64,000 nt of DNA from Adlercreutzia hattorii (GTDB taxonomy: Bacteria; Actinomycetota; Coriobacteriia; Coriobacteriales; Eggerthellaceae). The translations under genes were made by a program, and so were the position numbers. The stretch lies in contig NZ_AP022829.1 in assembly GCF_011405655.1 (NCBI RefSeq), positions 1,845,001-1,909,000 of the forward strand. Direction: 5' to 3'. This document shows, piece after piece, positions 32,835-45,061 of the stretch. Within the stretch, counting starts at the first letter, position 1. Every line of letters begins with the position of its first letter. Under the pieces are notes generated by a model. That model saw only the letters and a list, made by a program, of their open reading frames with translations, did no database searches and was not told the DNA's origin.

Positions 32835-33752
32835 CTATCCCCACGTCTCGCGCATGTAGGACCAGCGCTCGTCGCGGGCGCGCTCGATGAGGGCGAGGTC
32901 GGCTGCGTCATCGGCGGAGAAGCGGCCCTGGCGGCGCAGGTAGGGCTCGATGGGCTTGAACGACTTGGGGTCGCGGTTCAGGCGGAACGCGCCGCCGGGC
33001 GTCCCCGTAAGCGCCGGCCCCTCGTACTCGGCGAGGTACCACAGGCCCGCATCCACGATCTCACGCGCCACGTCCACCATATCGGCCGAAGGGAAGCCCC
33101 AGCCCACGGGACAGGGCGCCATCACGTGGATGAAACGGGTGCCCTTGATATCGCGCGCCCGCTCCACCTTCTTGATGAAGTCGTTCAGATACCCCACCGA
33201 GGCCGTGGCCGCATAGGGGATGCGATGGGCCGCCACGATGTCGAACAGGCTCTTCTTCTGCGTGAGGCAGCCGTGCTCGCGCTTGCCCGCCGGTGTGGTG
33301 GTCGTGGAGGCGCCGAAGGGGGTGAGGCTCGACTTCTGGATGCCCGTGTTCATGTAGGCCTCGTTGTCGTAGCAGATGTAGAGCACGTCGTCGTTGCGGT
33401 CGATGGCGCCGGAGAGCGCCTGCAGGCCGATGTCCGCCGTGCCGCCGTCGCCGGCGAAACCCACCACGGTGACGTCCTCGGGCGCCGCCCCCTGGGCGCG
33501 CAGGCCCGCCTCGATGCCCGAGAGCACCGCCGCCGTGGCCGCAAAGGGCGTGATCATCGCGTTGTTGCCGAAGGCCAGCTGCGGGAAGTTGAAGCCGGTG
33601 GCGCTCATGCAGCCGGCGGGCAGCGCCGCCACCGCATGGGGGCCGAGCACCTTGAGCGCCTGGCGCACGGCCAGGGCGCCTCCGCAGCCGGGGCACGCCT
33701 TGTGCCCATAGAAGAACTCCTCGTCGGTAATGGTGCGCGCGTTCACCGTCAT
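32835..33752 (-). CDS. porB: 2-oxoacid:ferredoxin oxidoreductase, beta subunit
   Basis: 305 residues. CPGCGGALAVRQAL near residue 20 supplies cysteines of the iron-sulfur site. GDGGTADIGLQALSGA followed by YICYDNEAYMNTG is the thiamine diphosphate-Mg2+ motif. In the four-subunit enzyme this chain binds the cofactor for oxidative decarboxylation of a 2-oxoacid to acyl-CoA, passing electrons to ferredoxin. The start codon overlaps the porA stop (ATGA). The neighbouring phenylacetate-CoA ligase-like gene hints at aryl- or branched-chain 2-oxoacids, but pyruvate is equally possible. Confidence 0.92.
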   Translation of the reverse strand: MTVNARTITDEEFFYGHKACPGCGGALAVRQALKVLGPHAVAALPAGCMSATGFNFPQLAFGNNAMITPFAATAAVLSGIEAGLRAQGAAPEDVTVVGFAGDGGTADIGLQALSGAIDRNDDVLYICYDNEAYMNTGIQKSSLTPFGASTTTTPAGKREHGCLTQKKSLFDIVAAHRIPYAATASVGYLNDFIKKVERARDIKGTRFIHVMAPCPVGWGFPSADMVDVAREIVDAGLWYLAEYEGPALTGTPGGAFRLNRDPKSFKPIEPYLRRQGRFSADDAADLALIERARDERWSYMRETWG

Positions 33753-34939
33753 CGCTGCTCCTCCTCTCCCTCTTCGATGCCGAGGAAGACGACCTCACCC
33801 GAGGCGCCCTCCCCCGCTGCCAGCGCTTCCAGGCGCGCGAAGGCGTCGCGCATGGCCTCGCGGCTGATGTCGTCGCCGCCGAGGCCGCCGATGAAGTTCG
33901 CGCTCGGTCGCGCAACGCCCGCACGGGCGAGCGATGCCAGCACATTCGCGTACACGGTGCCGGTGCCGCCGAAGGAGATGTCCTGCTCCAGCACGCCCAC
34001 GGCCGCCGCGTCGACCAACGCCCGAGCAAGAGCGGCATCGGGCATCGGCCGCAGGTAGCGGATGCGCAGCACGCCGGCCCGCTTGCCCGCCGCTCGCAGC
34101 TCGTCGGCCACATCGCGGGCAAGGCCGGCCGCCGAGCCCAGCGTGACGAGCACGAAATCGGCGTCCTCGCAAAGGTAGGCGTCCACCATGCCGGGATACG
34201 CCCGACCGAACACCTCGGCGAAGCGCGCCTCCACCTCTTCCACCACCGCCCCGACGGCCAGCATGTCGCGATGGTGCCAGTACTGGTAGTAGCGATTGAA
34301 GTCAGGTCCTGCCGAGTAGCCAATGTTCACGGGGTTCTCGAAATCGAACTTGTTGGCCGTGCGGTAGGGAGGCAGGAAGGCGTCGGCCTCATCAGCCGTG
34401 GGCACCTCCACCGACTCGTAGGTGTGGGTGAGCGCGAAGCCGTCCACGTTCACCATCACCGGCAGGCTCACCCGGGGATCCTCCGCCACGGCATAGGCCA
34501 TGAGCGCCAGATCGAGCGCCTCCTGGTTGTTCTCGGCATACACCTGGATCCAGCCATGATCGAGCAGCGACAGCGAGTCGCGCTGGTCGCCGTAGATGTT
34601 CCAAGGCAACGCAAGGGCCCGGTTCGCGTTCATCATCACAATGGGAAACCGGCCGCCCGAGGCGTAGGTGAGGCACTCGGCCATGTAGAGCAGCCCCTGG
34701 GATGAGGTGGCCGTGAACGTGCGCGCACCCGTGGCCGCGGCGCCGATGGCGGCGGCGAGCGCCGTGTGCTCGCTTTCCACGTGCAGGTACTCGGCGGAAA
34801 GACTCCCCTCCTCCACCATGGAGGCGAGCGCCTCCACGACCGTGGTCTGGGGCGTGATGGGATAGGCGGAGATCACCTGGGGCCGGGCGAGCCGCACCCC
34901 CTCGGCGAAGGCCTCGTTGCCGGAAAGGAACTTCCTCAT
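33749..34939 (-). CDS. porA: 2-oxoacid:ferredoxin oxidoreductase, alpha subunit
   Basis: 396 residues. The N-terminal pyrimidine-binding domain starts LSGNEAFAEGVRLARPQVIS, with AYPITPQTTVVE and EYLHVESEHTALAAAIGA, all typical of PorA. The C-terminal transketolase-like domain has GVLRIRYLRPMPDAAL. The ATG overlaps the porD stop (ATGA), so translation is coupled along porC-porD-porA-porB. Substrate choice is set mainly by this chain and cannot be read reliably. Confidence 0.93.
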   Translation of the reverse strand: MRKFLSGNEAFAEGVRLARPQVISAYPITPQTTVVEALASMVEEGSLSAEYLHVESEHTALAAAIGAAATGARTFTATSSQGLLYMAECLTYASGGRFPIVMMNANRALALPWNIYGDQRDSLSLLDHGWIQVYAENNQEALDLALMAYAVAEDPRVSLPVMVNVDGFALTHTYESVEVPTADEADAFLPPYRTANKFDFENPVNIGYSAGPDFNRYYQYWHHRDMLAVGAVVEEVEARFAEVFGRAYPGMVDAYLCEDADFVLVTLGSAAGLARDVADELRAAGKRAGVLRIRYLRPMPDAALARALVDAAAVGVLEQDISFGGTGTVYANVLASLARAGVARPSANFIGGLGGDDISREAMRDAFARLEALAAGEGASGEVVFLGIEEGEEEQR

Positions 34940-35481
34940 GCTAAGCCTCCCTTCCCAGTGGGGGTTTCGGGAATCTCGATTCGCTCAGACAGTCCTCGCT
35001 TTGGGGAACAGGACATTGAGTCCTGTTCCCGTCGCTGCGGAACTCGCTCGGTCGAGACACCCGAAACCCCGGCAACGCCACTCGAGGGCGAGGTCTCATC
35101 CAGAGTCTCGGCCGTCTCAGCCGCCCCTTCGTTCTCGCCGGCGTGCTCGTCCACCATGGCGATGCAGGGCACGGGGCATACCTTCGCGCACACGCCGCAG
35201 CCCTTGCAGAAATCGTAGTCGACGACGACGGCCACGCACGTTCCCTCGTCGTCGCGCACCTTCGCGATGGTGCCGTCGGGACAGTACATATAGCAGTTGA
35301 GGCACAGCGTGCACTGCTCGGCATCGATAACAGGCCGTACACTGCGCCACCCGGCATTCACCGAGGTGAGGTGCCCCGCCTCAAAACAGGTGGAGCGAGC
35401 GAACTGGCTCGGACGCGCGGCGAGCCCTTCGCGCAACGTGGGCGTGAAGGGGCGGCGGCTCTGACTAGCAATCGCGGACAT
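34936..35481 (-). CDS. porD: 2-oxoacid:ferredoxin oxidoreductase, delta (ferredoxin) subunit with an added tail
   Basis: 181 residues. Two [4Fe-4S] sites are visible, CTLCLNCYMYCP (near 57-68) and CKGCGVCAKVCP (near 92-103), which carry electrons from the catalytic chains to ferredoxin. After about residue 120 comes a Glu/Ser/Thr-rich stretch, and residues ~138-181 are encoded by a 110-base palindrome. PorD chains usually end soon after the second cluster, so this tail looks acquired. The frame still reaches the ATGA overlap with porA. The start overlaps the porC 3' end by 17 bases. Confidence 0.88.
   Translation of the reverse strand: MSAIASQSRRPFTPTLREGLAARPSQFARSTCFEAGHLTSVNAGWRSVRPVIDAEQCTLCLNCYMYCPDGTIAKVRDDEGTCVAVVVDYDFCKGCGVCAKVCPVPCIAMVDEHAGENEGAAETAETLDETSPSSGVAGVSGVSTERVPQRREQDSMSCSPKRGLSERIEIPETPTGKGGLA
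34961..35070. repeat. ~110-base palindrome inside the 3' end of porD
   Basis: The outer arms GGGGTTTCGGG (34961-34971) and CCCGAAACCCC (35060-35070) are perfect. The inner arms GGGAACAGGAC (35004-35014) and GTCCTGTTCCC (35020-35030) are perfect with a five-base loop. Between them the two sides share further short blocks such as TCTCGA. The whole could fold as one long stem-loop in DNA or mRNA. Confidence 0.88.
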
Positions 35482-36136
35482 CGAAATCCCTCCCCTCTCC
35501 CTCGACGAGCATCTCGGCCGCCAGCGAGAACATGGCGTCCTTCTCGGAAAGCACGGCGGTCACCTCCGTCGCCGCCTGCTCGGCGGCCACCAGGTCGCGC
35601 GTGGCGGCGATCTCGCGGGAGGCCACCTCGGCGAAGGCGACATCCACGATGCGTAAGTTCTTCGCGTGCAGCTTCTCGGGCATGGTGGCACAGATGCCGG
35701 CATGGATGTCCTCGATGGTCACGGCCGCCGTGAGCGCGGGAATGGCCCCGAGAAACACCGTGTTGGGAATGGGGCGGCCGAGCACGGCAGCGGAAATGCC
35801 ATCGGCGTCGATTCCCAGAATGCGCGGGTCGTCAAGGGCCCGCTTCGTGTTCAGCAGCATGAGGCCGCCGGGGGCGAGCTCGTCCTCCCAGCCGTCTTCC
35901 ACGAGCGTCTCGTCCAAATAGATGACGAACGCGGCCCGATGCACGGCGCTGCGGTCGCCGATGGGAGCGGTGTCGATCTTCGTGAACGCCCGCATGGGGG
36001 CGCCACGCCGCTCGGGGCCGAAGGTGGGGAACGCCAGCGCGTAGGCCCCGGCCGACAGCGCCGCAGCCGCCCCCAGGCACCGGGCCGCCGTAAAGGCCCC
36101 CTGCCCACCCCGGGCATGCCAAATGAATTCCAACAT
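35465..36136 (-). CDS. porC: 2-oxoacid:ferredoxin oxidoreductase, gamma subunit
   Basis: 223 residues. The N-terminus EFIWHARGGQGAFTAARCLG and FGPERRGAPMRAF are the signature of the gamma chain (GGQG and PERRG), which contacts coenzyme A. First gene of porCDAB, with AAGGAACC before the ATG. A terminator separates it from the upstream regulator-like gene, so the operon probably has its own promoter in the ~90 bases between. Confidence 0.92.
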   Translation of the reverse strand: MLEFIWHARGGQGAFTAARCLGAAAALSAGAYALAFPTFGPERRGAPMRAFTKIDTAPIGDRSAVHRAAFVIYLDETLVEDGWEDELAPGGLMLLNTKRALDDPRILGIDADGISAAVLGRPIPNTVFLGAIPALTAAVTIEDIHAGICATMPEKLHAKNLRIVDVAFAEVASREIAATRDLVAAEQAATEVTAVLSEKDAMFSLAAEMLVEGEGRDFDVRDC

Positions 36137-36979: not shown

Positions 36980-38323
36980 CTACTTCGCGCTGCTGCGCTC
37001 GTCGATGAAGCGGCTGGCCTTGTGCTCGGAAGACGTGCCCAGCTTGCCGGCGTCGTAGACGATGACGCGCGCCGGCTTCACACCTGTGTGCGCCTTCAAC
37101 GCCGCCGTCACGCGGGAGGCTACGGCATCGAAGGGCTCGTCGGAGCCCTGGGCGCGCTCGACCGACACCTCGTAGCGGGTGGAGAAGTTCTCGTCGTACA
37201 CGCGGATGAGGTACTCGCCGGTGAGCCCCTTCTCGCCGCGCACCACGAACTCCACGTCGGAGGGGAACACGTTCACCGCACCCACGATGAACATCTCGTC
37301 CTTGCGGCCGGTGATGTGGATGCGACCCAAAGTGCGGCCGCACTCGCACTTCTCGGTGGAGAAGTAGCCGATGTCACCGGTGCGGAAGCGGATCATGGGG
37401 CGAGCCTTCTTCATGAGCGTGGTGTACACAAGCTCGCCCACCTCACCGGGGGCCAGCACCTCGCCTGTGGCCGGGTCCACCGTCTCCACGAGGATCTGGT
37501 CCTCCACGATGTGCAGGCCGTCGTGCGCCTCGCAGGCCGCCGCGCACGCACCGTAGATGTCGGACAGGCCGAAAAAGTCGACCACCTTCGCGTCCCACAG
37601 GTTCTCGATGGCCTCGCGCGTGCTCTTGATGGAGCCGCCCGGCTCGCCGGCCACGATGATCGTGTGGATAGAGAAGTCGGTGCGCGGATCGAGGCCCTTC
37701 TCCTTGATCTTCTCGCCCAAAGTCCAGGCGTATGACGGTGACGTCCAGATGACCGTGGGCTGGTACTGCTGCAGCACGAAGATGAGGCGGTCGCTCGGCA
37801 CCGCGCCCACCCAGATGGCGAGCGCGCCCAGGCGCTGGGCGCCGATGACGTCGGGGCCGCCCACGTACAGGGCGAAGTTCAAACCGTGCACGTAGCGGTC
37901 GGTCGGGCGCATGCCGGCCTGCCAGAACAGGCGCGCCTCGGTGTCCTGCCACAAATCGAAGTCCTCTTGGGTGAACGGGCTTACCGTGGGAACGCCCGTG
38001 GAGCCAGACGAGGTGGCCATGAAGATGACGTCCTCCTCGGGCACCGAGCACATCTCGCCGAAAAACGTTCCCACATGCTGGGTCTCGCGCTCGGTTTTCT
38101 TATCGATGAAAGGGAACTTCTCCAGGTCCTTCAGGGTTTTGATGTCGGAGGGCGCCACACCGGCCTCGTCGAAAGAGCGCTTGTAGTACACCGTGTTGTC
38201 GTAGGCGTACTGGACCATCTCCTGCAAACGCTCGAGCTGCATCTGCTCCAGCTCGGGACGCGGCATGCACTCGATCTCGGGATCGTAGTACTTCTGGTCG
38301 TAGGGAATGTTCTTCTTCGCCAT
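36980..38323 (-). CDS. paaK: Phenylacetate-CoA ligase-like AMP-forming ligase
   Basis: 447 residues of the PaaK branch of the ANL superfamily. SSGSTGVPTVSPFT (P-loop), VDFFGLSDIYGA (adenine-binding region) and RFRTGDIGYFSTEKCECG are visible; the last is typical of PaaK, with two cysteines. It would join an arylacetate to CoA with ATP, or run in reverse beside a ferredoxin oxidoreductase producing aryl-CoA. The ATG at 38323 follows AAGGAG with five bases spacing; the GTG directly upstream is too close. First gene of the paaK to porB block. The aryl substrate is inferred, not shown. Confidence 0.85.
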   Translation of the reverse strand: MAKKNIPYDQKYYDPEIECMPRPELEQMQLERLQEMVQYAYDNTVYYKRSFDEAGVAPSDIKTLKDLEKFPFIDKKTERETQHVGTFFGEMCSVPEEDVIFMATSSGSTGVPTVSPFTQEDFDLWQDTEARLFWQAGMRPTDRYVHGLNFALYVGGPDVIGAQRLGALAIWVGAVPSDRLIFVLQQYQPTVIWTSPSYAWTLGEKIKEKGLDPRTDFSIHTIIVAGEPGGSIKSTREAIENLWDAKVVDFFGLSDIYGACAAACEAHDGLHIVEDQILVETVDPATGEVLAPGEVGELVYTTLMKKARPMIRFRTGDIGYFSTEKCECGRTLGRIHITGRKDEMFIVGAVNVFPSDVEFVVRGEKGLTGEYLIRVYDENFSTRYEVSVERAQGSDEPFDAVASRVTAALKAHTGVKPARVIVYDAGKLGTSSEHKASRFIDERSSAK

Positions 38324-38422
38324 CACTGCTCCTTGCTCGCAGGTATCGGGGGTTGTTTCGGTAAGCCAGTATGAAACCAGAACCCCACTCCCGAAGCAAG
38401 CCGAATCGGCATACGGAAAGCG

Positions 38423-38582: not shown

Positions 38583-39377
38583 TCATGTTATATCGCTATC
38601 GCTCTTTGAATTATCATTATTTTTCAGAGCTCGGTTGAACGCTGCAAAAAACTGCATTCCATTCGATACATGCATCTTGCGATAAATGCTAGCGACATGA
38701 TGCTTGAGAGTGTTCTTGCTAATACTTAGGCTATCGGCAATTTTCGCGCGAGACATACCTTTAACTAAAAGACTGCACACTTCCCACTCGCGTTGGGAAA
38801 GAAAGTAAGTTGCAATTATGCTATCGACATTGCAGTCCATCATAAAGCGATTCACACCATTGGGATAGGCGAGCCTGAAACGATTGCAGAGATGCTCATT
38901 GACCTCATTCAGTATGCGCATCTCCTCATCGGAAAAATTTCCCTGCTCTTTTGCGCGCATTAAGGAAATCGTCCCAAAAAGTATACCGTCTGTGGCAATG
39001 CACGCAGTCGCTGTATAAAAAATGCCCATGCGGCTTTCCCATTCCTGATGAATGCGCGATTGCTCAATTACTTCCGGAGGCACTAAATCCGTTGATCGAA
39101 CCGTTGCTGGTATCCCCTGATTATAAAACCACGAAAGATAGTCAATGGTGTGATAGTAATCCGCGTAAAGAGCCGTGGTTTCTTCGTCAGTGTCCATACT
39201 TTGACAATTGAAAGCCGCCTTGAATCGATCGGATTGATCGTTAAGGGCTGTATACGAATGATCAAAAGGAATAATTTCGCGTAAGCCCTCGCAGCAGCTA
39301 ATCAGCAAATCTTCCACAGGAGTAGTATATATTCCGATGATTATTTCATTTTGCTTCCTTCGAACGTCATCATCCAT
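38583..39377 (-). CDS. LuxR-type transcriptional regulator, likely for the agmatine cluster
   Basis: 264 residues. An N-terminal GAF-like region (EDLLISCCEGLREIIPFDHS, GILFGTISLMRAKEQGNFS) is followed by a LuxR helix-turn-helix with LSQREWEVCSLLVKGMSR and SLSISKNTLKHHVASIYRKM. The gene is clearly AT-richer than its neighbours, suggesting horizontal origin or relaxed codon use. It is distal to arcC on the same strand, and LuxR-type AguR regulates agmatine operons in some Gram-positive bacteria, so this role is plausible. The ATG at 39377 is preferred over a GTG at 39386. Confidence 0.82.
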   Translation of the reverse strand: MDDDVRRKQNEIIIGIYTTPVEDLLISCCEGLREIIPFDHSYTALNDQSDRFKAAFNCQSMDTDEETTALYADYYHTIDYLSWFYNQGIPATVRSTDLVPPEVIEQSRIHQEWESRMGIFYTATACIATDGILFGTISLMRAKEQGNFSDEEMRILNEVNEHLCNRFRLAYPNGVNRFMMDCNVDSIIATYFLSQREWEVCSLLVKGMSRAKIADSLSISKNTLKHHVASIYRKMHVSNGMQFFAAFNRALKNNDNSKSDSDIT

Positions 39378-39555
39378 GTGCAACACCTCATTTGCGATTC
39401 GCTAACTCTCTTGTATTAATTGCATTCTCCTGTGTTCGTCGGTCTTTGCAGAGAAAACACCCTTGCGAACTCTCTGCAATCGCTATGGGCACCGTGCGCC
39501 TTTTGCCACGATAATGCGGTGATGAAAAGGGCTTATATCCTCCATTTACAATACC

Positions 39556-39646: not shown

Positions 39647-40600
39647 CTAGGCGACGATGACGGTACCCGTCTCGCCGCGAAGGCCGGCGGCCGCGCACTC
39701 CAGCGAGGTGATGAGGGCCTTGCCCTCGGGGTACTTCTCGACGTAGTCGATGCAGGCCTCCACCTTGGGCAGCATCGAGCCGGGGGCGAACTGGCCCTGG
39801 GCGATGTACTCGCGGGCCTGGGACACGGTCATCTCGGAGATCTGCTCCTGCTCCGGCGTGTTGAAGTTGACGCACACCTTCTCCACGGCGGTGAGGATCA
39901 CGAGCATGTCGGCGTTAAGCTCCGAGGCCATCAGCGCGCTCGAGCGGTCCTTGTCGATGACCGCGGGCGTGCCCACGTAGCCGCCCTTAGTCTCGAAGAC
40001 CGGCACCCCGCCGCCGCCGGTGGACACGACCACGTAGCCGTCCTCCACCAAATCGCGCACGGCGTCGAACTCGACGATGCGCCTGGGGATCGGGGAGGCG
40101 ACCACCTGGCGCCAGCCGCGGCCGGCGTCCTCCTTCACGGTGATGTTCATGGCCTCGGCCTTGGCCTTGGCGGTCTCCTCGTCCATGAACGCGCCCACGG
40201 GCTTGGTGGGGTTCTGGAACGCGGGGTCGTCGGCGTCGACGACGGTCTGGGTCACGATGCAGGCGGTGGAGCGGGGAATCTCCCGGGCCTTCACGTCGTT
40301 CAGGATGGCCTGGGACAGCTGGTAGCCGATGTAGCCCTGGCTCATGGCGCCGGCCTCGGGGAAGGGCATGTCCGGGGTCTTGTCGTCGTTGGCAGCCGCG
40401 TAGGCGAACGCGTTGTTGATCATGCCGACCTGGGGGCCGTTGCCGTGGGACACGACGACGTTGGTGCCCTCCTCGATCATGTCGACGATGTGCTTGGCGG
40501 TGTTCTGCACGAGCTCGAGCTGCTCCTGCGGGGTGTTGCCGAGGGCGTTGCCGCCCAGGGCGATGACGACGGTCTTGCCGGGCCCTTTCTGGTAAGGCAT
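39647..40600 (-). CDS. arcC: Carbamate kinase
   Basis: 317 residues of the amino acid kinase family. VVIALGGNALGNTPQEQ is the N-terminal phosphate loop, with VVVSHGNGPQVGMINNAF, VSTGGGGVPV and FAPGSMLPKVEACIDYVE, all carbamate kinase signatures. It converts carbamoyl phosphate and ADP to ATP, ammonia and CO2, the energy-yielding last step of both the arginine and agmatine deiminase routes. The ATG follows AGGAGGAAC. It lies downstream of the NCS1 permease, separated by a hairpin with a T-run. Confidence 0.95.
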   Translation of the reverse strand: MPYQKGPGKTVVIALGGNALGNTPQEQLELVQNTAKHIVDMIEEGTNVVVSHGNGPQVGMINNAFAYAAANDDKTPDMPFPEAGAMSQGYIGYQLSQAILNDVKAREIPRSTACIVTQTVVDADDPAFQNPTKPVGAFMDEETAKAKAEAMNITVKEDAGRGWRQVVASPIPRRIVEFDAVRDLVEDGYVVVSTGGGGVPVFETKGGYVGTPAVIDKDRSSALMASELNADMLVILTAVEKVCVNFNTPEQEQISEMTVSQAREYIAQGQFAPGSMLPKVEACIDYVEKYPEGKALITSLECAAAGLRGETGTVIVA

Positions 40601-40612
40601 GGATGTTCCTCC

Positions 40613-40667
40613 TGTATCAAAAATGATGGGACCCGTATCGCATTGTCAATACACACAAGGTCCCATC
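40613..40667 (-). terminator. Hairpin with T-run between the permease gene and arcC
   Basis: On the minus strand GATGGGACC pairs with GGTCCCATC around ~25 bases, then ATTTTTG. It would reduce readthrough into arcC or mark a separate arcC promoter. Confidence 0.7.
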
Positions 40668-40729
40668 GCGTCGTTAATCGTTTTTCTTCTGCACTATTCG
40701 TGCGATAACCATATGTTTCGCTCCGTCAA

Positions 40730-42175
40730 TCATAGGTTATTTTCACCGACGGACTCAGTGCTTACTTTTTCAGCAGACTCAGAAAAGCCGCCGATTCCCC
40801 TCTTCACCAGCAATAGCTTTCCGAGCACGTAGTATAGCACAGCAACGAAAACGCATACTATGGCCGTTGCTCCGCAATACACGAAAGCTGGCTGAGGCAC
40901 GCACAAGAACGGATCGAAGATAAGCAGGTATAGCACAATCGCAGCAGCGAATACTCCAATGGCAACCCAGTTAAAGCCTCCCCAGAAATAGTACTTGGAG
41001 CTCTTGCTGTTATTGTACGCATCACGAAGCGAAATGTGCTTTTTCCTAAATGCATAGTAGTCCACAAGCTGCATCATGGCGATAGGAGCACAGCTCATGC
41101 TAGAAATTCCCAGAATGATATAGAAGCTGTCATAGAGCGGCTCTGCCCAAATCATTCCGATAAATGCGATAAGGGTAATCAGGCCAGTGACCTTGCCCCA
41201 AGAAAGCTTCAGGAAGCTCCTTACCTGCTTTACGCCGATACCCAAGTTATACAACATGACGGAGCAGGCCGTAATGTCAGCGGCAATTACCAAAACCAAA
41301 GCCGCGGTGCCGAGCGCCAACCCACCCATGGGAATCATCCAAGCAGTCGGATCAGAGCTGTTCACAAGCAGCGACGCCGCCACACCCATCACGGTACCCA
41401 AAGTTGCAGCAAAAACAAGGCCAATGATATTCGGCCAATACGCCGCTCTCGTTGTCTTGCACAGCTTCGCCAAGCCTCCCATGTTCGGCCACCAAGAAAA
41501 ACCGGCGCCCATGCTCAATTCGAAAGCAATGAGAAAGTTCAGCCATTCGCTATCAAGCGGCGCAAGAGGCTCCGCGGATAGAACCGTGTCCCAACCGTAA
41601 TTCATGGACACCACCGCGAACAAGAAGATCAGGATGATGACGAAAACCGGCGCAACGAAGATGTTGAGCTTCTTCAGGAGCTCCGGGCCCTTCCAAGCAA
41701 CTAGCCAGCAAACCGCACCGGCAAGCACTGAAACAATGAACATCGGGATACCTGTAGTGATATCTATCCCGGTAAATCCCAGCACAATATTGCCGACGGC
41801 TTTCGCCACCATCATGCAGAGAATAATAAGCCAAGCGATGACGAAAATCGACATCAAGATTAGAAATACCTTTGTCCCCCTTCCGCCAAGCACACCTCTG
41901 ACAGACGTATAGGCATCGACGCCATACTTGCCAGAAATTACCTGCGTCGCAAGGGACATAAGCAACACTGCAATGATATTGCCCGCAATCGAGGCGACCA
42001 GTGCTGTCTGAACGCCCACGTAAAGCGCTAAAGTTCCTCCCGTGATGAAGCACCATGCCGCGCACGCAAAACCAGTGATAACCACTGTATAGTCTTTGAA
42101 ATCGTAGATACGCTCGCTTTTCAAGACCGGCATGGACTCGCTTTGTGCCTCACTATTGATATCTGCCTCAGCCAT
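40730..42175 (-). CDS. NCS1-family permease in the agmatine cluster
   Basis: 481 residues with about 12 hydrophobic segments. The fold matches nucleobase:cation symporter-1 (CodB-like) carriers: FKDYTVVITGFACAAWCFIT, GVDAYTSVRGVLGGRGTK, SMGAGFSWWPNMGGLAK and MMQLVDYYAFRKK. NCS1 carriers known so far move purines, pyrimidines, hydantoins, thiamine and similar compounds. Here it lies between agmatine deiminase and carbamate kinase, where known operons carry an APC-type agmatine/putrescine exchanger, so transport of agmatine or putrescine is inferred. The ATG follows AAAGGAGG. A 73-residue one-TM protein is encoded 12 bases upstream. Confidence 0.85.
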   Translation of the reverse strand: MAEADINSEAQSESMPVLKSERIYDFKDYTVVITGFACAAWCFITGGTLALYVGVQTALVASIAGNIIAVLLMSLATQVISGKYGVDAYTSVRGVLGGRGTKVFLILMSIFVIAWLIILCMMVAKAVGNIVLGFTGIDITTGIPMFIVSVLAGAVCWLVAWKGPELLKKLNIFVAPVFVIILIFLFAVVSMNYGWDTVLSAEPLAPLDSEWLNFLIAFELSMGAGFSWWPNMGGLAKLCKTTRAAYWPNIIGLVFAATLGTVMGVAASLLVNSSDPTAWMIPMGGLALGTAALVLVIAADITACSVMLYNLGIGVKQVRSFLKLSWGKVTGLITLIAFIGMIWAEPLYDSFYIILGISSMSCAPIAMMQLVDYYAFRKKHISLRDAYNNSKSSKYYFWGGFNWVAIGVFAAAIVLYLLIFDPFLCVPQPAFVYCGATAIVCVFVAVLYYVLGKLLLVKRGIGGFSESAEKVSTESVGENNL

Positions 42176-42187
42176 AATGCACCTCCT

Positions 42188-42409
42188 TTAAGCGTACGTA
42201 ATCGCATACCAGATCACAGGCAACACACCGAGCACGATGAACATTGCGGCAATCAAGATATGATCGACTTTGTTTAATCCCGGAATAAGCTCTCCCGCGG
42301 CTTCCTGCTTTTCGATAATCGCGATTCGCTCAAAAAGATCTCCTTCATGCTCTGCATCAAAATTCGTTTTTCCGCTGAGCTCAGCAGTGATTTGCTGTAA
42401 ATCATCCAT
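42188..42409 (-). CDS. Small single-TM protein, likely accessory to the NCS1 permease
   Basis: 73 residues. The first ~48 are hydrophilic and acidic (MDDLQQITAELSGK, LFERIAIIEKQEA), then one hydrophobic segment (HILIAAMFIVLGVLPVIWYA). It has a good ribosome site (GGGAG, six bases before ATG) and is followed within 12 bases by the permease gene. Small one-TM accessory chains of this form accompany some carriers, so a partner role is inferred; I do not recognise a named family. Confidence 0.75.
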   Translation of the reverse strand: MDDLQQITAELSGKTNFDAEHEGDLFERIAIIEKQEAAGELIPGLNKVDHILIAAMFIVLGVLPVIWYAITYA

Positions 42410-42658
42410 AGACTACTCCCTTTTTGATTGGTGGAGTTGAAGTTGCGTAAAGCAATCGGAGGTATCGTTTAATTACGCATTGTCGACTTTCCAAACAGGT
42501 ACTTTCCCTGCGCATCTCGCAGCTCGAAGAGGGGCGCGAAGCACGAACCTCGCCATCCCCGCGCCCTTCGTTCTCGCAGCTTCACTCGACCCAACTTATC
42601 GTCGATACGGCGAATGGACCCTGAAATCAGATGCAATATGGAAAACGCGTTTTACGCC

Positions 42659-43855
42659 CTAGGCGCAAGGCTCCTGCTGAGTGATGCAGTGGATGTTTCC
42701 ACCGCCGTAAACCACCTGTCGGGAATCCACGCCTACACATTTGAAAACATCCTTGCCCCACACTTCGTCATAGATACTCTGAAGCGTCTCAACGGCAAGC
42801 GCATCGTTCTTGTCTCCGTACTGCGGAACAATGCAGGCGTTGTTCGTGACGAGATAGTTCATATACGAGGCAATCTGCGGCTCATCCTGGGCCGTACGCG
42901 GATTGACGAGGTCAATCGAAGCAGCCTCTTCCTCAGACATATAGCACGGCTTTTCCGGCATCGGGAGCTTGTAGACCTTCAGCTTACGACCCTTCGCGTC
43001 TACCGCATTTGAAAGCGTCTCATAAATCTCATGGCACTGACGATAGAAGGGATAGTCCGGATCGTCGGTCCAAATGCATGCCACGACACCAGGAGCAATA
43101 AACGTAGCGCAGTCGTCGATATGGCCGTTGGTCACCTCAGGGTCAATACCTTCCTTGACCCAAATAACTTTCTCAACACCGAGGTATTTCTCGAGCTCTT
43201 GGGTCATATACTCACGCAGCTCCTCGCTGAAGGCCGCATACTTGCGAGCGTATTGCGGCCAATCGCCTGCATCCGGCTCATCGGCGACAAGCACCGAGGC
43301 AGTACGACCAGCAGACAGGAGACAGGAATCGGTGACGATCAGGGTTCCCTCACCGTCAACGGTAATGGAGCCACCTTCGAGAATCACATGATCAGGGCGA
43401 TACGTGCGAACGCCAGAGTAGTCGGCCATTTTCCCAGCAATCTGAGAGTCCTTCTCCCACGGGAAATACAGGCCGTCAACCAAGCCACCATAGGCGTTGA
43501 AATGCCAATCCGTAGCCGCCTTATTGCCCTTGCCATCAATGAGAAAAGTTGCACCCGTATCACGGAACCAAGCATCATTGATGCTCATTTCGAGAACAGT
43601 TACGCGCTCGTTGTCTGCAAATACCGCCTTGCAGTTGGCATAATCATCCTCGTTGCAGCACATCACCACCGGAGTGAACTCGGAAATCGCATTCGCAATT
43701 CCCGCATAGGTACGCTGAGCAGGTACGGCACCAAAGGCAAAAGTATCGGGACGATTGGGCCAGCCCATCCAGACTCGCTCCTGAGGAGCGAATTCAGCCG
43801 GCATATAGAAGCCATCTGCTTGAGGAGTAGATTCGGATTCAGTAATCTGACGCAT
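42659..43855 (-). CDS. aguA: Agmatine deiminase
   Basis: 398 residues in the PAD/AguA family. MPAEFAPQERVWMGWPNRPD at the N-terminus, SINDAWFRDTGATFLI and ILEGGSITVDGEGT are agmatine deiminase signatures, and the catalytic cysteine is in GGGNIHCITQQEP at the C-terminus. It hydrolyses agmatine to N-carbamoylputrescine and ammonia. The ATG at 43855 (MRQITESE) follows GGAGG with seven bases spacing; the upstream in-frame start is less likely. It sits between putrescine carbamoyltransferase and the small TM protein. Confidence 0.95.
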   Translation of the reverse strand: MRQITESESTPQADGFYMPAEFAPQERVWMGWPNRPDTFAFGAVPAQRTYAGIANAISEFTPVVMCCNEDDYANCKAVFADNERVTVLEMSINDAWFRDTGATFLIDGKGNKAATDWHFNAYGGLVDGLYFPWEKDSQIAGKMADYSGVRTYRPDHVILEGGSITVDGEGTLIVTDSCLLSAGRTASVLVADEPDAGDWPQYARKYAAFSEELREYMTQELEKYLGVEKVIWVKEGIDPEVTNGHIDDCATFIAPGVVACIWTDDPDYPFYRQCHEIYETLSNAVDAKGRKLKVYKLPMPEKPCYMSEEEAASIDLVNPRTAQDEPQIASYMNYLVTNNACIVPQYGDKNDALAVETLQSIYDEVWGKDVFKCVGVDSRQVVYGGGNIHCITQQEPCA

Positions 43856-43921
43856 TACAATACCTCCAGCTCGACTGAACAAAAGTGGGTAGAATCAAAA
43901 CGATTCTGCGCAGAAAGCGAA

Positions 43922-43958
43922 GCGTCCGTCGCGAGCTTTCACGCAAAGCGACGGACGC
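43922..43958 (-). terminator. Hairpin between the carbamoyltransferase gene and aguA
   Basis: GCGTCCGTCGC pairs with GCGACGGACGC, an 11-pair perfect stem, followed on the minus strand by TTCGCTTTC. It may partly terminate or protect the upstream message. Confidence 0.65.
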
Positions 43959-43969
43959 AATCGATCCTC

Positions 43970-45061
43970 TTAGAAATCGTAGTTGCGAATACGCGGGGTA
44001 AGGAGGTCCTCAACTTTACCGCGGTAGTAGTCCTTCAAGTACTCGCTGGTGTTGCGGCGAAGCGGCCACAGAATGTACACCAGAATGCCGCGCTGGGCAT
44101 AAAGACGATTTTCGCCCAGAGGAAGCAGCGCGGACTGCGGACCATCCCAAACCTCATCGGTCAACTCCCAATTGCGGTTGCCGGGCAGGTAATGCAGCAC
44201 CCAGGCGCTCTTAGGAGCATGTGCCATCAGATCAGCATTGATCTGGTACTTCGGATAGAAGACCTTGAAGGCCTCTTCCTCACTCACGCCGTAGTTGTGG
44301 TAGTTAACCACGCCAGTGTAGAAGAAGTCGGTCTCTCCAGCGTACTCCAGCGGATCCTCAGTGCAGATGATCTCTCCATTACCATCTTCAGCAGCCTGAG
44401 CGCGGCACTTGGCAAGCAGCTCGTCGCTCGGCCAGAACTTCTTGGGCGCTGCGCAAATAACGCGAATGCCCAAACGAGGGAACAAGGACAGATGGTCCAT
44501 GAACACGCAGTCGAACCCGTCGGCGCCATCACCCAGCCACATAAAGGTGAGGTCGGAAAGCTTCTTGCCCGCCGGCTTGCGCTCGATCATCGTGATGAGG
44601 TCAGCGATAACCTGCGTGGGATGATGCTGCTCCTGGCTGCCGAAGCCATCCTCCTGGAACAAGGCGCAGCTCATACCGCTGATTACCGGTACGGTGGAGT
44701 TTGCAACAACCTCATCGATGACGCGCTGGCTGAGGCTGCGGATCATGATGGCATCAGCCATGCTAGAAATGATGGCAGCCGTCTCAGCGATATCCTCTTG
44801 GCCAGAACCGGCATGCAAAGAGCTGCCATCCAGGAACATGGCATGGCCGCCAAGTTGGGTCATGGCTGTTTCGAAGCTCACACGCGTACGGGTAGACTGC
44901 TGGTCGAACATCATTGCAAGGACAACGTCCTTGAGCAGAGGAAGACGAACACCCTTTTCTTCCATCTCCTTGAGCAGCAAGCACGTATCAAGCAGTTCGT
45001 TGATCTGCTCTACGCTCCAATCGCTCAAACGATTCATGTCCATGTAGTGCTCATGCTTCAT
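43970..45061 (-). CDS. ptcA: Putrescine carbamoyltransferase
   Basis: 363 residues of the carbamoyltransferase family. FDQQSTRTRVSFE is the carbamoyl-phosphate site. The second-substrate region reads LHYLPGNRNWE instead of the HCLP of ornithine enzymes. The extended C-terminal helix (YILWPLRRNTSEYLKDYYRG) is characteristic of putrescine carbamoyltransferases. It would phosphorolyse N-carbamoylputrescine to putrescine and carbamoyl phosphate. The ATG at 45061 (MKHEHYMD) follows AAGGAG; longer starts lack homology. First gene of the agmatine cluster. Confidence 0.88.
   Translation of the reverse strand: MKHEHYMDMNRLSDWSVEQINELLDTCLLLKEMEEKGVRLPLLKDVVLAMMFDQQSTRTRVSFETAMTQLGGHAMFLDGSSLHAGSGQEDIAETAAIISSMADAIMIRSLSQRVIDEVVANSTVPVISGMSCALFQEDGFGSQEQHHPTQVIADLITMIERKPAGKKLSDLTFMWLGDGADGFDCVFMDHLSLFPRLGIRVICAAPKKFWPSDELLAKCRAQAAEDGNGEIICTEDPLEYAGETDFFYTGVVNYHNYGVSEEEAFKVFYPKYQINADLMAHAPKSAWVLHYLPGNRNWELTDEVWDGPQSALLPLGENRLYAQRGILVYILWPLRRNTSEYLKDYYRGKVEDLLTPRIRNYDF

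Follow-up and report, generated by a model that had tools for sequence, protein, structure and literature searches.

The agmatine deiminase operons of lactic acid bacteria and Eggerthella, whose genes are named AguBDAC, follow an ATP-yielding logic in which a transcarbamylase, a deiminase and a carbamate kinase act together, and they carry an APC-type agmatine/putrescine exchanger. Guanidinobutyrase GbuA of Pseudomonas (3nio), another enzyme of guanidino compounds, releases urea, and no ATP is gained. Here we describe a gene cluster of the gut bacterium Adlercreutzia hattorii (Eggerthellaceae) that shares the three enzymes of the agmatine operon, but has an NCS1 permease in the place of the exchanger and, next to it, a gene for a small protein with one transmembrane (TM) helix. 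The cluster lies in a window of 64,000 nucleotides (contig NZ_AP022829.1, forward-strand positions 1,845,001 to 1,909,000), itself part of a single 2.9-Mb contig. Carriers made of a large protein and a small TM protein encoded by the adjacent gene are known among LeuT-fold transporters (MetPS, ActP-YjcH and PanF-YhdT); these belong to the NSS and SSS families, whereas the carrier of the window belongs to NCS1. ATP gained from arginine and agmatine sustains the family member Eggerthella lenta in part, according to the available part of the report (PMC10234575). The closest described carrier is MetT, an NCS1 importer of metformin with a Km of 15.9 μM, which is inhibited by carbonyl cyanide m-chlorophenylhydrazone (CCCP) and in which W43, W117 and W231 are the most important residues, as stated in the accessible text (PMC13390362).

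In the order of transcription, on the minus strand, the cluster encodes the transcarbamylase, an agmatine-deiminase-like enzyme, the 73-residue one-TM protein, the NCS1 permease and the carbamate kinase (Table 1). Twelve bases (42176-42187) separate the stop of the small gene from the ATG of the NCS1 gene, and an AGGAGG resembling a ribosome-binding site overlaps that stop; open reading frames (ORFs), gene order, strand and gap are all as an initial annotation of this DNA had given them. The same annotation took the cluster for an agmatine route with an NCS1 agmatine/putrescine exchanger. We propose that it is probably a module that breaks down a guanidino compound, but not agmatine, since, as judged from alignments, both enzymes appear to have lost the residues that would recognize agmatine and putrescine. 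The NCS1 protein matched Transp_cyt_pur at 66 bits (cut-off 23.5), and the carbamate kinase reached 356.4 bits with TIGR00746 (cut-off 358.25) and 319.3 with PRK12352 (cut-off 266).

The deiminase retains the catalytic residues C390, H245, D247 and D99. Agmatine's terminal amine is bound, in the Medicago enzyme, by Asp220; the gate-loop residue Arg301 holds this Asp and also contacts Asn35 (PMC6447857, available in part). Just before the TNGH motif, 2ewo and 2jer carry Glu and 1vkp carries Asp. At the amine-binding position, all five NCS1-linked deiminases have Val, whereas the best copies from other family genomes have Glu in 25 of 25 cases, a survey that covered loci from 30 of the 34 family genomes with a deiminase match. 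The counterpart of Arg301, R320 in the window enzyme, is invariant in the alignment. Asn35 is replaced by Thr; this Thr and the long insertion are not specific to the cluster, because both occur in an APC-linked paralog of the same genome (locus L029).

The transcarbamylase scored 269.6 bits with TIGR04384, for which the cut-off is 500, and the label of putrescine carbamoyltransferase (PTC) given by the initial annotation did not survive this comparison. The described PTC signature includes STRT without a Lys two residues before it, HCLP, the 230-loop and a C-terminal extension (PMC3282769, consulted in excerpt). The window enzyme shows the first of these (DQQSTRT) and, as VEDLL at residues 350-354, the weak C-terminal motif (L/f/v/i)XX(F/Y/L/M/v)(L/i/m). 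HCLP is replaced by HYLP in all five window-type transcarbamylases, and the loop motif (Y/W)(G/W)(V/L/I)X is absent from them: each reads TGV-VNYH.., with no DVWYGLY. In a quick tree, 20 signature-bearing PTCs formed one clade (support 99), and the five window-type enzymes were placed apart from it, with further odd transcarbamylases from the same family. Since the signature is lost and the enzymes lie outside the PTC clade, the name putrescine carbamoyltransferase is not safe.

Such odd transcarbamylases, with HFLP, HPLP, HYLP or HELP, were seen at several Eggerthellaceae loci: L168 (7194-8255), L169 (6807-8051), L170 (7286-8431), L171 (6898-7983), L172, L173 and L146 (9967-12239). Some have as neighbours other transporters, distant deiminases or, in L171, a gene that by eye resembles arginine deiminase, and they possibly represent more, as yet unnamed, routes for ureido compounds.

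Ordinary agmatine clusters are present in the same genome. PAD_porph matched four loci there, and two of those outside the window lie in clusters that combine an APC permease and a deiminase with a transcarbamylase that has both DVWYGLY and HCLP and passes TIGR04384 (527.5 and 531.4 bits). The initial annotation had named an APC-type exchanger elsewhere, induced by agmatine, as a finding that would speak against its own reading; of this, the gene content is borne out by these two clusters. In 19 loci read (17 fetched stretches and the two clusters of this genome), 22 of the 24 full agmatine deiminase (AgDI) genes have an APC permease in the same cluster, adjoining the deiminase except in L138, where the transcarbamylase intervenes; the other two are that of a second pair in L146 and the lone gene of L148. 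Two fragments in L142 and the deiminases of L168 and L172-L176 are excluded from the 24. Compared with the agmatine deiminase operon, the window cluster thus lacks the amine-binding residue and the PTC signature, and the NCS1 permease and small protein replace the APC permease. Genome G052, which we take to be E. lenta DSM 2243, has APC permeases in all three deiminase clusters read and no window-type NCS1. On this ground we rejected the E. lenta operon described, in the part of the paper available, as not induced by agmatine (PMC10234575) as the equivalent of the window cluster.

Locus L029 of the window genome (1775-10309, at 2.56 Mb) is a mixed cluster with a canonical PTC and an APC permease. 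Its deiminase is 72% identical to that of the window, shares the insertion and keeps Glu at the specificity position, and its carbamate kinase is 90% identical to the window kinase. In another locus of this genome, L030 (6658-9135, at 0.95 Mb), a distant PAD_porph protein adjoins a divergent transcarbamylase (26% identical to that of the window), and genes in the vicinity are, by eye, likely to encode transporters.

Of 138 family genomes, five have the core set (the genome of the window, G051, G088, G095 and G096), with the genes side by side and identities of 82-100% for the NCS1 protein and 89-100% for both transcarbamylase and deiminase. The small protein had matches in six of the 138, counting the genome of the window: five of 60-100% identity and a weak one in G046; none was found in eight other genomes of the same genus. 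A single-sequence scan of genome contigs for the small protein gave no match, a search that missed two carriers later reached through the NCS1 alignment. A LuxR gene lies near the cluster in all five genomes, in varying orientation, and carbamate kinase is present in the clusters of the window genome and G096. The carrier group is sparse, with 5 of 396 genomes in the sample of the phylum and 2 of 391 in the class of G521 (the second being G722), and the window gene is the only NCS1 gene found in its genome. The co-occurrence of small protein, permease and deiminase across genomes, put forward by the initial annotation as a check, holds for these five genomes of the family; the Clostridia genomes with the pair gave no AgDI match.

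When the window NCS1 protein was compared with 72,556 plasmid records, the best 3 of 41 matches were metformin-degrader plasmids, at 35.2% identity over 89% of the query. MetT residues W43, W117 and W231 correspond to W41, W115 and W228 of the window protein, if the numbering of the plasmid copy is allowed to differ by one residue at W117 and W231, and the place of MetT F47 is taken by Thr. A quick tree put 31 NCS1 rows, picked by likeness to the window protein and including near-copies and the MetT copy of L065, on one side of a branch from 30 controls (support 98). MetT and the window permease are alike in their group, in the pocket Trp residues and in adjoining genes for guanidino enzymes, although those of MetT are ureohydrolases and those of the window a deiminase and a transcarbamylase.

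Where the neighbourhoods of the NCS1 group are readable, their common denominator appears to be guanidino or quaternary-ammonium compounds. Two Clostridia carry the NCS1 and small-gene pair (NCS1 51% identical) surrounded by an agmatinase-family ureohydrolase, a MerR regulator and an iron alcohol dehydrogenase, and an AgDI match was found in neither genome. An agmatinase-family gene is near the pair also in Ensifer, Gemmobacter and Roseateles. In Thioclava the order is small gene, NCS1, ureohydrolase and aldehyde dehydrogenase. This ureohydrolase, directly behind the pair, is GbuA-like, unlike the deiminase and transcarbamylase of the window: it scored 490 bits to guanidinobutyrase 3nio, 300 to guanidinopropionase and 188 to the best agmatinase. 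It keeps an RPYN stretch that we take to hold the equivalent of GbuA Arg72, a residue proposed to meet the carboxylate of the substrate (PMC9772407, seen in part). The link of this NCS1 group to guanidino compounds, which the initial annotation had suggested, gains support from metformin import by MetT (PMC13390362) and from the Thioclava neighbour, but the 'new substrate class for NCS1' it envisaged is not new in general, MetT having been published in June 2026. Five Eggerthellaceae have a more distant pair near a choline-kinase/cytidylyltransferase fusion (by Pfam in one, by 52-64% identity in four). No such guanidino or choline enzyme is annotated in the neighbourhoods from Arthrobacter, Burkholderia, Bacillus badius, Rhizobium and Caballeronia.

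At L027 (7055-9045, in G046) and L091-L094, the small protein and distant NCS1 stand near a fused helix-turn-helix/nucleotidyltransferase/choline kinase gene. The lic loci carry LicB at the corresponding place, and the NCS1 protein at L027 and L091-L094 is likely a choline or amino-alcohol importer. A second Eggerthellaceae subgroup of such pairs (L095-L099) gave no match to the choline kinase fusion.

The 73-residue protein matched no family above cut-off. Its ORF is coding, as the protein is 60-71% identical in four other genomes and nonsynonymous divergence (dN) is low against synonymous divergence (dS): 0.17-0.26 versus 1.2-3.2 in three pairs, the fourth pair having a dN of 0.30 and no dS value. 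A small one-TM ORF stands directly upstream of the NCS1 gene in 28 of the 31 members of the group (27 of 30 fetched rows, and the window), as found by a script for ORFs of 45-110 residues with a hydrophobic C-terminal stretch. Its three misses were L023, where the ORF is present by similarity, L075, with an annotated 99-residue ORF that has a hydrophobic C-terminal stretch, and L065, where it is interrupted. By contrast, in 30 further NCS1 loci from the family no upstream small one-TM ORF was found when 45-130 residues were allowed. Further afield, on an actinobacterial contig outside the family, a 61-residue ORF abuts a 34% identical NCS1 gene.

Profile searches, in which the best shuffled decoys had E values of 0.085 to 0.38, connected the window group of small proteins with G046 (2.9e-6). 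The distant group from Eggerthellaceae matched both the window protein (3.4e-4) and the small protein of the metformin plasmids (1.5e-4), and the rhizobial group matched one member from Eggerthellaceae (1.3e-3). For the small ORFs of L070-L074 and L106, profiles did not show homology (L106 and L072 came barely above the decoys with one profile) and the likeness is one of layout; the ORF of L070 lacks annotation. A small one-TM ORF also precedes metT (L100, 2765-2956; L065; L101), intact in KHPS2 and with an in-frame stop in pMET-2 and KHPS1. These data support the small protein as a conserved partner of this NCS1 group, and the pairing made by the initial annotation stands. A small partner goes unmentioned in the available text of the MetT paper (PMC13390362). 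P. mendocina MET grows on metformin (PMC9800807, in the part available), so MetT may not need the small protein. Two MetT homologs introduced as single genes into a metT mutant did not support metformin use, differences in expression not being ruled out by the authors in the accessible part of their text (PMC13390362).

From the genes, their synteny and the residue changes we infer the following route. The NCS1 permease and its one-TM partner would import a guanidino compound; the agmatine-deiminase-like enzyme would convert the guanidine to a ureido group, setting ammonia free; the variant transcarbamylase, working in reverse, would pass the carbamoyl group to phosphate and free the amine; and carbamate kinase would gain ATP from the carbamoyl phosphate. 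As first candidate for the substrate we tentatively name 4-guanidinobutyrate, yielding 4-aminobutyrate (GABA), although we consider it less likely than not. In chain length it equals agmatine, a carboxylate replacing the aminomethyl group, and the loss of Glu and Asn may leave the gate-loop Arg (R320) free to pair with that carboxylate; the compound comes first because of this chain length, the freed Arg and the guanidinobutyrase-like neighbour in Thioclava. N-alkyl, acyl or hydroxy compounds, or agmatine itself, are possible substrates. For creatine, metformin and allantoin/oxamate routes we found no pointer among the assigned window genes, and MetT F47 is Thr here; these candidates were rejected. 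Conceivable, though in our view more likely wrong than right, is a wider hypothesis: that some NCS1 proteins form a subfamily whose substrates are guanidinium and quaternary-ammonium compounds (guanidino acids, biguanides, choline), each carrier consisting of the large protein and a dedicated one-TM subunit, and that this two-component system supplies gut Eggerthellaceae with a non-agmatine guanidino compound, which they ferment by a new, ATP-yielding route that includes a transcarbamylase of new specificity.

Several observations weigh against a substrate other than agmatine. The deiminase passes TIGR03380 (433.2 bits, cut-off 381.8), and agmatine use could survive a single change of Glu to Val. 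In the transcarbamylase no new Lys or Arg that might meet a carboxylate is obvious, and the PTC-like Gln two positions ahead of STRT is retained. The stretches read from G051 and G088 showed no carbamate kinase, and in G095 the sequence is masked with N. The ureohydrolases beside the closest NCS1 outside the family, those of the Clostridia (51%), pass agmatinase cut-offs, which fits agmatine too. Both trees came with long-branch warnings, and L168 was left out of that of the transcarbamylases by the motif filter. A further agmatine route, in which the NCS1 protein and small protein replace the APC exchanger and swap agmatine for putrescine, would also suit the retained catalytic residues, a MetT-like NCS1 able to carry a guanidino cation, and the occurrence in Clostridia and rhizobia of agmatinase-family genes next to the pair or close by. 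We nevertheless consider it unlikely: the amine-binding Glu and the PTC signature are lost in five of five cases, and the genome already has two AgDI clusters with APC permeases. Agmatine and putrescine, the substrate pair of the initial annotation, are disfavoured on the same evidence.

Within a non-agmatine module, the tail of the substrate could instead be neutral or hydrophobic (an N-alkylguanidine, acylated agmatine or guanidino alcohol). The Val is hydrophobic, not basic, and in Clostridia and rhizobia the pair has genes for alcohol or aldehyde dehydrogenases in its vicinity, but the clearest specificity of any neighbour is guanidinobutyrase-like (Thioclava) and no dehydrogenase is among the assigned cluster genes; we give this branch a minor share, about equal to that of 4-guanidinobutyrate. 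As to the small protein, from the carrier clade and the small-gene pairing we infer an action on the carrier. Alternatively, its ORF could serve as a leader or couple translation, or the protein could regulate turnover of the carrier, as its gene abuts that of NCS1 with a ribosome site overlapping the stop, and the counterpart beside metT has an in-frame stop in two of three metformin plasmids. That its sequence is under selection, that the C-terminal TM layout is common across phyla with weak sequence similarity between groups, and that other NCS1 loci lack such an ORF (0 of 30) make this rather improbable, and a probable partner of the carrier is the reading we keep.

Guanidino transport by NCS1 (MetT) and the deiminase-transcarbamylase-kinase logic are already known. 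In the open-licence literature we found no report joining agmatine and NCS1; for guanidinobutyrate and NCS1, one metformin hydrolase paper; and for a small subunit of NCS1, nothing relevant among the papers listed. As far as this literature shows, the small NCS1 partner and an agmatine-type operon with these specificity changes were not found in print. If the proposal is true, a third guanidino-compound route would add a substrate, account for one of the duplicated 'agmatine' clusters of the family, and show that metabolic models are misled by automatic names such as putrescine carbamoyltransferase. If the NCS1 group with the metformin importer has a conserved small subunit, this would affect how transport assays with the large protein alone are read.

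Table 1. Genes and features of the A. hattorii cluster, in window positions.
Feature	Position	Strand	Basis or remark
Variant transcarbamylase, 363 residues	43970..45061	-	PF02729/PF00185 (OTCace_N/OTCace); best PDB match putrescine carbamoyltransferase 3txx
Transcarbamylase 230-loop TGVVNYHNYG (canonical PTCs: DVWYGLY)	44288..44317	-	Alignment
Transcarbamylase HYLP instead of HCLP (acceptor-binding motif)	44183..44194	-	Signature from PMC3282769 (available in part)
Agmatine-deiminase-like enzyme, 398 residues	42659..43855	-	TIGR03380, PAD_porph; 2ewo/2jer; catalytic Cys/His/Asp retained
Deiminase Val241 codon, at the place of the amine-binding acidic residue (Asp220 of M. truncatula agmatine iminohydrolase)	43133..43135	-	Alignment
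Deiminase insertion of ~27 residues (187-213) relative to 2jer	43217..43297	-	Alignment
73-residue protein, charged N-terminal segment and one C-terminal TM helix	42188..42409	-	Hydropathy
NCS1 permease, MetT-related group paired with a small protein	40730..42175	-	PF02133, tree
Carbamate kinase	39647..40600	-	TIGR00746, PRK12352, AA_kinase
LuxR-type regulator	38583..39386	-	GAF match below cut-off

A scan of the cluster for promoters and terminators gave nothing beyond shuffled controls. Flanking CoA ligase and LysR-domain genes were rejected as members, since neither is beside the cluster in the stretches from the other four genomes. The CoA ligase, at 36980-38326, is PaaK-like, and genes at 32835-36136 resemble (by eye) subunits of a 2-oxoacid:ferredoxin oxidoreductase.

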